The notes beneath the pieces are model-generated. The model was given only the letters and a program-made list of their open reading frames with translations. It ran no database searches and was not told the origin of the DNA. A DNA stretch of 63,923 nt from positions 1 to 63,923 of the forward strand of contig CACHDI010000009.1 of NCBI GenBank assembly GCA_902578545.1, written 5' to 3'. Below are positions 57,122 through 63,469 of this stretch, piece after piece; the stretch's first letter is position 1, and each line of letters opens with the position of its first letter. A program made the translations under genes and the position numbers. The DNA comes from an uncultured Alphaproteobacteria bacterium. GTDB lineage: Bacteria > Pseudomonadota > Alphaproteobacteria > Rhodobacterales > Rhodobacteraceae.

Positions 57122-58315
57122 ATGGCGAATATTAGTATAAACACAAATCCAACTGGACGCAGTCCAGATAAAAAGTTTTTCTTTGGAAGACAAACAAAAA
57201 GTTTAGACTTAACTAGACCAAAATATAATAAAATTGGCAAAGAAAAAGATTATAGAGATTTTTTAAAATTACTCAAAGATCAGAAATATTTATCACCTAC
57301 TAATTTTGAAACAGTTGGGACTAACTTTACATTACATACTAATGATGAACGCCATAAGCAATTTGTTTGGAATATGTTTAAAGTTACAGCTGAGGATCAG
57401 GTAGGTGATTGGACTATTTATCATAATACTGAGATCAAAATGGAACCAAAAATATATATACACTTGGACGAAAAAGTGTTGCTGATAGGTGGTACTACAT
57501 TTCTTGGTGAAATAAAGAAAGGTGTTTTTGGCATTGTAAGTTTTGAATTACCTAAATATAAAATACTGCCAATGCATTGTGGGGCATTTACATATGGTGG
57601 TACTACAAATTTAATGTTTGGTTTGAGTGGTACTGGGAAAACAACCCTAAGTAGCGATCCAGATTATAAACTTATAAGTGATGATGAAGTAGCATGGACA
57701 AGTATGGGAATAAGAATGATAGAAACTGGATGCTATGCCAAAAGTGAGGGACTTACTCCAGACACTCATAGAACAATTTTTGATGCTGTAGCTACTGCAA
57801 AGAAAAGGAATACTCTAGTAGAAGAAAATCCAGAAGCATTAAATGCTAGATTAAGTTATCCAATAACTTGTGTAGAAAATGCATATCATAAACGAAGTAA
57901 CTTTGATCACGCAGATAATATATTTTTTTTAACAATGGATGCAGAAGGCATTTTTCCTGCGATCAGTAGAATTAGCGGAAGTACAGTAAGACGTTTCTTT
58001 GAAACAGGTTATACTAGTCAAATGCCTGGAACAGAAGCCGGATCTGATGAAATTAAGAGAACATTTTCACCATGTTATGGATCTCCGTTTATGCCCAGAA
58101 AAGTAAAAGAATACAGTGACATGTTAATGAAAAAAATTAAAAAACATAATTGCAATGTGTTTTTGGTAAATACAGGCATGGATAAGTCTGGAAAAAGATT
58201 TGATTTGGAATTTACTCGTAATACAATTAAACAGGCTATATTAACAGAGTATCCTTTAGAAGATAATAGTGAGGAAGTTTTAAAAAAATTAGAAAATATG
58301 ATAGATCTAAATTAA
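57122..58315 (+). CDS. Compact ATP-dependent PEP carboxykinase-like protein
   Basis: 397 aa against about 530 for ATP-PEPCK. Active-site parts are present: TGRSPDKKFF near the start, LIGGTTFLGEIKKGVFG, PMHCGAF, the kinase P-loop GLSGTGKTTLSSDP, ISDDE, NARLSYPI and the late GKRFDLEFTR. Missing are about 50 N-terminal residues, the FCGANP segment and about 80 C-terminal residues. The frame is clean and flanking DNA shows no remnants, so a compact paralogue rather than a pseudogene is likely. It may still make PEP from oxaloacetate or use another substrate. Confidence 0.8.
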   Translation: MANISINTNPTGRSPDKKFFFGRQTKSLDLTRPKYNKIGKEKDYRDFLKLLKDQKYLSPTNFETVGTNFTLHTNDERHKQFVWNMFKVTAEDQVGDWTIYHNTEIKMEPKIYIHLDEKVLLIGGTTFLGEIKKGVFGIVSFELPKYKILPMHCGAFTYGGTTNLMFGLSGTGKTTLSSDPDYKLISDDEVAWTSMGIRMIETGCYAKSEGLTPDTHRTIFDAVATAKKRNTLVEENPEALNARLSYPITCVENAYHKRSNFDHADNIFFLTMDAEGIFPAISRISGSTVRRFFETGYTSQMPGTEAGSDEIKRTFSPCYGSPFMPRKVKEYSDMLMKKIKKHNCNVFLVNTGMDKSGKRFDLEFTRNTIKQAILTEYPLEDNSEEVLKKLENMIDLN

Positions 58316-61202: not shown

Positions 61203-62369
61203 ATGTCCTTGAAAAAAAATTATGGAGATTCACATGATTTATTTGTTGTAAGTTCAAAACGTTTTGACATAAGCCCATACATTTCCAAATATTATGATAA
61301 AAAAATTGTTTTTGGAATTTCAGCAAATAGATTTTATCCTCTATCTAACGGAAAAGATCCAATTGAATCTTATTGGAACTTAAGAAAAAAAGTGGTTTTA
61401 TATGATGTGCCCGAGAAGCCACTAGAAATAAGTGGTTCTGACTCATTAATATTATTAGAAAAAGTTTTCTCTAGGACCATATCCGATCTAAAAATTAACC
61501 GTGCAAGGTATGCCATTGCCTGTAATTATGATGGTGGAATTATAATGGACGGAATATTGATAAGACTATCATCAAATAAATTCTGGTATATTCATGCTGA
61601 TGGTAATTTCGAGACATGGTTATTAGCTCATAGTGAAGGTTTAAAAGTAAATATAAGAGACCCAAAATCTTGGGCAATTCAAATACAAGGACCCAATGCC
61701 TTAAAAGTTTTGAAAAATTGTGTTACCAGTATTGATATAGAAAAATTCAAATATTTTCATTGTCATAACCTAAATTTTGGTGGTCAAAATTTTTTAGTCT
61801 CTAGAACTGGATGGACAGGTGAACTTGGTTTTGAAATTTATAGCAATGGTCCCCAAGATGATCATCTTCATTTATGGGATTATATAATGGAAAGAGGTAA
61901 AGATTTTAACATAAAAACGTCAAGTTTAGATTCAATGGGCATAAGAAGAATAGAAGCTGGAATTCTCGACTATGGTACTGATATGAATCGTTTTAATAAT
62001 CCTTTTGAGGTAGGATTAGGTAAATTTATTGATCTTTCAAAAGGTTTTTTTATTGGGAAAGATAAACTATTAACAGTTAACAAAAAAACCAAACTTTTTG
62101 GTATAATTTGTCAAAACATAATTCCCTTTTCTGGATTAAAAATTTTTTACAAAAATAAAATAGTTGGTCAAACTACTGTAGGGGCCTTTTCTCCATACTT
62201 TGGTAAAGGTATCGGATATGCATTATTCAATTACAATAACAACTGGATAGAAAAAAAATTATATATTAAAGATCATGAAAATAATTTACATGACTGTCAA
62301 ATAGTAACCTTACCCTTTTTTGATGAGTCCAAAAAAATACCAAAATTAGTAAATGCAAACTTATCTTAA
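61203..62369 (+). CDS. GcvT-family aminomethyltransferase, DmdA-like
   Basis: A 388-aa folate-dependent methyltransferase-fold protein. It shows VSRTGWTGELGFEIY and DYGTDMNRFNNPFEVGLGKFID, the latter nearly the DmdA pattern (DMSP demethylase: YGNDMNREHNPFECGLGKF). The N-terminal half is more diverged, with LYDVPEKPLEISGSDSL. It probably transfers a methyl or aminomethyl group to tetrahydrofolate; DMSP is one candidate, glycine betaine and dimethylglycine-type substrates others. It stands alone, so context does not settle the substrate. Confidence 0.75.
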   Translation: MSLKKNYGDSHDLFVVSSKRFDISPYISKYYDKKIVFGISANRFYPLSNGKDPIESYWNLRKKVVLYDVPEKPLEISGSDSLILLEKVFSRTISDLKINRARYAIACNYDGGIIMDGILIRLSSNKFWYIHADGNFETWLLAHSEGLKVNIRDPKSWAIQIQGPNALKVLKNCVTSIDIEKFKYFHCHNLNFGGQNFLVSRTGWTGELGFEIYSNGPQDDHLHLWDYIMERGKDFNIKTSSLDSMGIRRIEAGILDYGTDMNRFNNPFEVGLGKFIDLSKGFFIGKDKLLTVNKKTKLFGIICQNIIPFSGLKIFYKNKIVGQTTVGAFSPYFGKGIGYALFNYNNNWIEKKLYIKDHENNLHDCQIVTLPFFDESKKIPKLVNANLS

Positions 62370-62450: not shown

Positions 62451-62966
62451 ATGATTTTTAATTTAAAAAATTCTTATTTTCTTTTTTCTTTCATATTTTA
62501 TTTATTAGTTTCTTGTTTTTATCTTATGGCTGAAACAAGAACTACTATATATGAAAAAGATCACTGGAAAGTCTTTGCCTATAAGTATGATGATGGGGGA
62601 CGTGCATGCATTGCAAGTGTATCAAATAGTGAAATGGAGCTTCAGATTTATAGATCTAAAGATTTTTATGAATTAGCAACTTTTTATGAGGATTTTACAA
62701 ACAAAAAATATGATTTTTTTAAATTTCAAATTGATAATAATGATCCATGGATAGATGATAGTCCCGAATATGATAACGGTTGGTTAATGAGTAATATCTC
62801 TAATTATACTGAGCAAGCTGCAAGCGAAATTGAAAAAGAAATGAGAGCAGGAAGGAAATTTTATCATCTGGATAAAAATGATACTATAGCATGGTTTTCT
62901 TTAATTGGATCAAATAAAGCTTTTGATGCCTTTGATAAATGTGTTTTAAAAAATGGACTGTACTAA
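62451..62966 (+). CDS. Exported protein of unknown function
   Basis: About 171 aa from an ATG with GGAG 6 bases upstream; an earlier in-frame start lacks a ribosome binding site. A signal peptide of about 30 residues ends near MAETR. The mature part is acidic with DDGGRACIASVS and two Cys that could pair. I do not recognise a family with confidence; the start of the mature protein resembles periplasmic proteins of the invasion-associated-locus-B type only loosely. It precedes the BLUF gene. Confidence 0.6.
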   Translation: MIFNLKNSYFLFSFIFYLLVSCFYLMAETRTTIYEKDHWKVFAYKYDDGGRACIASVSNSEMELQIYRSKDFYELATFYEDFTNKKYDFFKFQIDNNDPWIDDSPEYDNGWLMSNISNYTEQAASEIEKEMRAGRKFYHLDKNDTIAWFSLIGSNKAFDAFDKCVLKNGLY

Positions 62967-63067
62967 ATTTAAAAAAAAAACTTAAAATATAAGACTTCAA
63001 TAAATGGTGTTTAGCTGTTAACCTTATAGATATTATTATTAAATTTAAAAAAATTCTGGAGACCAAG

Positions 63068-63469
63068 ATTAAGTATTTAATATATGTATCTACACCGTTT
63101 GGTTTTAATAAAAAAAATATAAATAGTATTTTAGAAATTTCTAACTTAAACAATAAAAAAAATAGCATTACTGGATGCTTAATTTATCGATCTGACCTAT
63201 ATCTCCAATATCTTGAAGGTCCATCTAAAGAATTAAAAAATACTTATAATAAAATTTTAAATGATAAAAGACATTCAGACATAAAAAAATTGTCTGAAAA
63301 CAATTCTAAAAGAAGATTATTTGCCAGCTGGGCTATGAGAGGCGATCCGTTGATTACATCAATGTGGAATAACAAAGATGTAATGGAAGGTACTGTAAAA
63401 AAATTAAATCCAGCAGAAGCCTTTAAAATATTCGAAACGGTTTCTCGAGAAATAGACCAATTTAATTAA
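63068..63469 (+). CDS. BLUF-domain blue-light photoreceptor, probable ATT start
   Basis: A 133-aa BLUF (FAD-binding blue-light sensor) protein. Key photochemical residues are all present: Tyr6 and Ser8 (LIYVS), Asn32 (NSITGCLIY), Gln47 (LQYLEGP), the RH of DKRHSDI, and Trp88/Met90 (SWAM). The first residues KYLIYVS match the family start exactly, with the codon before them ATT instead of ATG. GGAG lies 6 bases upstream of that ATT, and no ATG, GTG or TTG is in frame between it and the preceding TAA. About 35 C-terminal residues form the usual capping helices. No output domain is fused. Confidence 0.85.
   Translation: MKYLIYVSTPFGFNKKNINSILEISNLNNKKNSITGCLIYRSDLYLQYLEGPSKELKNTYNKILNDKRHSDIKKLSENNSKRRLFASWAMRGDPLITSMWNNKDVMEGTVKKLNPAEAFKIFETVSREIDQFN

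Follow-up and report, generated by a model that had tools for sequence, protein, structure and literature searches.

Genomic Context of the BLUF Gene

The window analyzed here is a stretch of 63,923 nucleotides from an uncultured Alphaproteobacteria bacterium (assembly GCA_902578545.1, contig CACHDI010000009.1, positions 1-63,923; genome label G000). Close to its 3′ end lies a gene for a BLUF photoreceptor on the forward strand (63068..63469), which reads from an ATT codon through 133 amino acids to a TAA stop and was characterized with the Pfam profile PF04940, an AlphaFold2 model, and Foldseek. It is preceded on the same strand by a gene without an assigned family (62451..62966, start region CTGGAGTAAAAATG) and a leader that extends from this gene to the ATT (62967..63067, forward strand). 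Downstream, a convergent gene on the reverse strand, also without an assigned family, is cut by the contig end (63516..63923). The genome, 83% complete with 1.96 Mb across 74 contigs, contains a single BLUF match.

Of the 12 genomes of the genus that were searched, 11 have a match to the BLUF protein. The 18 matching places comprise nine orthologues (54-100% identity) and nine members of a second BLUF group (38-42%). Both flanks of the gene are common to G001, G010, G006, G008, and G009 (as far as the G009 contig reaches), and in all five the convergent downstream gene adjoins BLUF. In G011 they are present in part, and the G002 and G005 stretches yielded neither flank. In G006, G008, and G009 it is a GCV_T-like gene that precedes BLUF, and their stretches hold no match to the gene at 62451..62966. 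No operon partner was found among the genomic neighbors at the loci of the genus orthologues. The window itself also encodes a GCV_T-family protein (61203-62369), for which the best NCBIfam model is DMSP demethylase (174 bits, cut-off 410) and which has two one-base gaps against G010. A further gene (57122-58315) is PEP-carboxykinase-like, with merely 397 amino acids and scores far under the NCBIfam cut-offs, yet it is 94% identical in G006.

A Short BLUF Protein of the PixD Type

The frame 63068-63466 matches PF04940 with an E-value of 5.1e-27 and 94.3 bits (Pfam cut-off 25), and the match spans residues 3-90 of 133, or profile positions 3-91 of 92, which is the whole domain. Tyr6, Asn29, Gln47, and Met90 show no variation across an alignment of 21 sequences, at least 90% of which have Trp88. 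All five residues are kept in the three genomes that lack a canonical start (G000, G001, and G010). HMMER alignments place these five residues at the flavin site of TePixD and bPAC, and we take them to be the photochemical residues of the domain. Like BLUF domains in general, the protein would bind FAD and form a red-shifted signalling state. An earlier note on this DNA had described a complete BLUF domain with all photochemical residues, and this description holds.

The AlphaFold2 model (pLDDT 88) has a strand at residues 2-10, a helix at 15-31, strands at 35-41 and 44-51, a helix at 53-64, a strand at 69-79, and C-terminal helices at 102-106 and 115-130. The best Foldseek matches are 8i98, 1x0p, and 2hfn (TePixD, Slr1694), which align along the whole chain with TM scores of 0.78-0.81 relative to the query and an rmsd of about 4 Å; BlsA (6w72) follows with a TM score of 0.73. 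The protein shares with PixD (Slr1694, TePixD/Tll0078) and BlsA a BLUF domain with C-terminal helices and no effector domain, and with its 133 residues it belongs to the short BLUF class; the earlier note had called it a stand-alone blue-light sensor. It differs from PixD in sequence (about 24% identity) and in the non-canonical start of its gene. Members of the PixD class form a decamer with a PixE-type partner. NCBIfam gave no match to the protein at an E-value of 0.001, and every one of the 21 plasmid records with a match has less than 60% identity. As a short BLUF protein similar to PixD it is ordinary, and the existence of such a receptor is in itself unsurprising.

The Start Region

The frame is open from stop to stop between 62993 and 63466, and the earliest ATG, GTG, or TTG within it is the TTG at 63290, codon 75 of 133 counted from the ATT. 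The claim that no canonical start precedes the middle of the gene is thus borne out, as is its corollary that a gene caller restricted to ATG, GTG, and TTG would either drop the gene or begin it at 63290. A start at this TTG was rejected, since the product would lack the first half of the domain, including Tyr6, Asn29, and Gln47. The favored initiation codon, ATT (63068..63070, forward strand), has the same codon as counterpart in G001 and G010. Upstream lies a Shine-Dalgarno-like GGAG (63058..63061, forward strand), identical in both relatives and separated from the ATT by six bases (ACCAAG), the distance given in the earlier note. In the window, 50 of 5608 ATT triplets (0.9%) have a GGAG four to nine bases upstream, and 0.7% of shuffled leaders have one at matching spacing. 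In a tentative predicted fold of the leader (z -1.87; 7 of 200 shuffles equally good), the GGAG is partly paired, which counts against its use. The ATT also stands at position 1 of the Pfam profile, in agreement with its placement at the N-terminus of the family, but the aligned codon is internal in the relatives, so that being ATT does not alone make it the initiator.

The lack of a canonical start is not a matter of chance, because among the 53 non-overlapping frames of at least 150 codons in the window, BLUF alone has no ATG, GTG, or TTG in its first 80 codons, and in the remaining 52 such a codon comes within the first 28. A scan of 863,923 bases, which is 44% of the genome with the window included, yielded 719 frames of at least 120 codons, in four of which the first canonical start comes only after at least 60 codons. 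These four are BLUF, bchD, folC, and C1:20323-20772, the last of which we judge to be probably no gene.

Start Codons of the Orthologues

The nearest relatives, G001 (99% identity) and G010 (92%), likewise have no canonical start before the domain, and together with G000 they form one clade (support 100/99). Of 29 BLUF loci, 26 have a canonical start either at profile position 1 or before it, the exceptions being these three genomes. The count derives from 30 loci less L026, which is truncated on its 5′ side, and 14 further BLUF matches were not among the loci; the tree left out one paralogue by length (G007, with a stop inside). Since the start-less state is common to a clade of three genomes, a sequencing slip is unlikely.

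In the other six orthologues, an ATG lies immediately before the codon aligned with the ATT (G006, G008, and G009), four codons upstream of it (G011), or eight codons upstream (G002 and G005); GGA(G) is not present before the ATG of G008 and G009. Members of the second BLUF group have an in-frame TTG upstream in nine of nine cases. At the aligned position, four of the nine orthologues have ATT, three ATC, two GTA, and none ATG. The earlier note had named an ATG at this position in relatives as evidence against its proposal, and none of the eight other orthologues (3 ATT, 3 ATC, 2 GTA) carries one. Three codons past the ATT, a TTG stands in frame in G010, where the window has TTA. As a start, this TTG was set aside, as it would truncate strand 1 and lacks a Shine-Dalgarno tetramer 4-10 bases before it.

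Maintenance of the Frame and Initiation of Translation

A gene that has lost its canonical start may be in decay, with any protein made from it incidental. The missing start itself fits such a course, as does the excess of non-synonymous over synonymous changes between G000 and G010 (13 to 8). The dN/dS is 0.37, but with 21 changes the synonymous excess is weak by itself (p between 0.035 and 0.17 depending on the transition weight). The pattern of divergence argues otherwise. The BLUF gene shows 21 substitutions in 402 bases and no indels between the two genomes, compared with 16 of 101 bases and two indels in the leader (62967-63067; Fisher p 0.0009), 14 of 73 in the part of the leader before 63040 (p 0.0002), and 52 of 489 in three other intergenic gaps (p 0.003). 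Its divergence is close to that of the four neighboring genes (132 of 3749; p 0.09). There is no stop and no change of length across the 133 codons in G000, G001, and G010, and all five photochemical residues are retained. Because the frame has changed so much less than the leader, the gene appears to be kept, and the best reading of these comparisons is that selection on the protein continued after the canonical start was lost; recent decay is improbable. The leader block 63040-63067, with 2 of 28 bases changed, fits a region of Shine-Dalgarno sequence and start, but would also fit codons read from the CTG at 63056. A canonical start joining the frame by another route, whether from an upstream ATG with a frameshift or slippage on the way or because of an assembly error, seems more improbable still. 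The leader does contain a run of A, with seven in G000 and eight in G010, and in four of the ten loci read, rnr of the same clade is split where 11 A stand in a row. However, three separate genomes agree at the BLUF locus, and the sole ATG of the leader (63004) opens a frame of five codons that is closed by TAA before the A-run.

The A-run ends just 5′ of ATT CTG GAG, and as its length differs, the frame above it is not common to G000 and G010. A start beyond the run was therefore set aside, and a start shared by both genomes, if both use the same one, is limited to ATT 63053, CTG 63056, or ATT 63068. The main competitor is the CTG (63056..63058, forward strand), which stands in the place of the G011 ATG and would yield a protein four residues longer; on this reading, an ancestral ATG, still present in G011, would have become CTG. 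The sequence CTG GAG ACC AAG ATT matches ATG GAG TTT GAA ATT of G011 codon for codon, and in G011 the same GGAG sits within the codons that follow the ATG. The folC gene, which has a CTG with no canonical start before it in 8 of the 10 genomes read, also suggests that CTG is a credible start in the genus. Against the CTG stands the lack of a Shine-Dalgarno-like tetramer before it, which counts less because 34 of the 53 window frames have none in a loose scan. The GGAG at a good distance from the ATT would then be a coincidence of about 1%, and a CUG start in E. coli is given 0.86% of the output of AUG in PMC11497404, which cites earlier work. On balance, initiation at CTG 63056 is possible but rather unlikely, and initiation at ATT 63068, favored over the CTG because of the GGAG six bases before it, is moderately probable. 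Of the ATT start put forward in the earlier note, its non-canonical nature stands, and the codon itself is probable but unproven, given that six relatives have an upstream ATG and CTG 63056 aligns with that of G011.

Our preferred explanation, held with some confidence, is thus a functional short PixD-like BLUF receptor whose translation begins at a codon other than AUG, in all likelihood AUU 63068. The GGAG at six bases would position this codon, and the initiator tRNA would read it as methionine, in an initiation that is presumably weak and sensitive to IF3. In the protein, FAD photochemistry at Tyr6 and Gln47 would shift the C-terminal part and so change the binding to a partner protein, for which PpsR or a similar regulator is a candidate.

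Light-Dependent Regulation and Known BLUF Systems

The G000 genome contains reaction-centre genes (two matches) and PpsR, and because of these genes the organism is very likely an anoxygenic phototroph. AppA of Rhodobacter/Cereibacter sphaeroides is a BLUF antirepressor of PpsR with a C-terminal SCHIC/Cys-rich region. The G000 protein resembles it in its BLUF domain and in the presence of PpsR and reaction-centre genes in the same genome, but it ends at 133 amino acids without the long C-terminal region and thus does not have the build of AppA. BLUF proteins of the PapB/BlrP1 type act through an EAL output. No EAL domain was found in any of the 12 genus genomes, most of which are incomplete, in a search whose control was positive in 6 of 14 cases, and this speaks against a PapA/BlrP1-type output. 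A model for a candidate role may be LdaP of Dinoroseobacter shibae, an aerobic phototroph without AppA, in which this LOV protein is described as a light-dependent antirepressor of PpsR (PMC10890935). LdaP has in common with the candidate role that it is a blue-light protein acting on PpsR; it differs in being a LOV protein, and binding of PpsR by the G000 BLUF protein is speculative. By this analogy, the short BLUF protein could fill an LdaP-like place at PpsR.

The co-occurrence of BLUF with PpsR and photosynthesis genes is loose. G005 (97% complete) has neither a reaction-centre nor a PpsR match and has kept the BLUF gene, and in G003 (60% complete) PpsR is present with no BLUF match. The G005 orthologue (L041) carries Arg in place of Gly51 and Ser in place of Trp88, both at nearly invariant positions, and G002, which has photosynthesis genes, retains Gly51 and Trp88. 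This contrast is suggestive, as one case and not a test. A rhodopsin family search gave no match anywhere, with the controls equally silent.

Non-canonical Starts in Other Genes of the Genus

BLUF is not the only gene of this genus with such a start. The infC gene, which was chosen separately and lies outside the sample of 719 frames, was found in 7 of the 12 genomes, and in all seven AAGGAG or CAGGAG is followed by ATC or ATA at the conserved N-terminus. Six of the seven lack any in-frame canonical start before this codon, and G005 has a GTG 14 codons upstream. A bchD-like gene (G000:C6:35832-37571; L082, L090), so named from magnesium-chelatase-D models (E 3.6e-149, below the curated cut-offs with 498 of 571 bits and 383 of 500), has GGAGG, five bases, and ATA in five of the seven genomes read (G000, G010, G011, G006, and G008). 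In these five, the earliest canonical start comes after 33 or 114-116 codons; in G002 and G003 the gene begins with ATG. In folC (G000:C1:80418-81725; L099, L121), the genomes outside the CTG group have TTG (G011) or ATG (G004), and further in, TTG occurs in G006 and G009 and ATG in G001. With infC, bchD, and folC lacking a canonical start upstream in most of the genomes read, the genus thus tolerates or uses AUH/CUG starts in several genes.

In E. coli, IF3 acts against non-canonical starts (PMC2268962). In Salmonella, initiation-arrest profiling as reported in PMC11005335 detected near-cognate starts, one AUU among them, with stronger Shine-Dalgarno-like contexts at alternative starts. The BLUF gene shares with AUU/AUH-start genes of the infC type, including infC of G000, a non-canonical ATH behind a strong Shine-Dalgarno sequence; it differs in that BLUF is not a translation factor, and no autoregulatory logic is known for it. 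These genes may share an IF3-sensitive control. The more far-reaching idea that an AT-rich phototroph lineage moved a small set of genes, among them the light-related BLUF and bchD, onto AUU or AUA behind strong Shine-Dalgarno sequences, under IF3 control like infC, is doubtful. If true, the condition of the translation machinery would bear on both light sensing and pigment synthesis and so couple them to it. Our literature searches found no paper that brings together AUA, non-AUG start codons in bacteria, and bchD, and among the papers listed for AUU start codons or BLUF none contained the term "AUU start codon".

As judged from sequence, the gene encodes a real and conserved short BLUF receptor of a known protein class with an uncommon start, and the set of genes that share non-canonical starts in this lineage is the part most worth attention. 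With gene callers restricted to ATG, GTG, and TTG, this photoreceptor would go unseen or be cut short, as would bchD in the same genus, so that surveys of light sensing and photosynthesis clusters in uncultured bacteria could undercount genes or assign them wrong starts. Because several genes share this loss of a canonical start, they also offer a natural comparative test of how bacteria maintain AUH/CUG-start genes.

RNase R, where the first start follows after 56 codons, was dropped as a start-codon case, because its gene is instead split into two frames at the run of 11 A (G000:C7:18869-20860, L084/L137; also L134, L138, and L131). The split is present in G000, G001, G010, and G009, and rnr is a single frame in G006, G002, G003, G004, G005, and G007; the shared frame break may be bridged by slippage.
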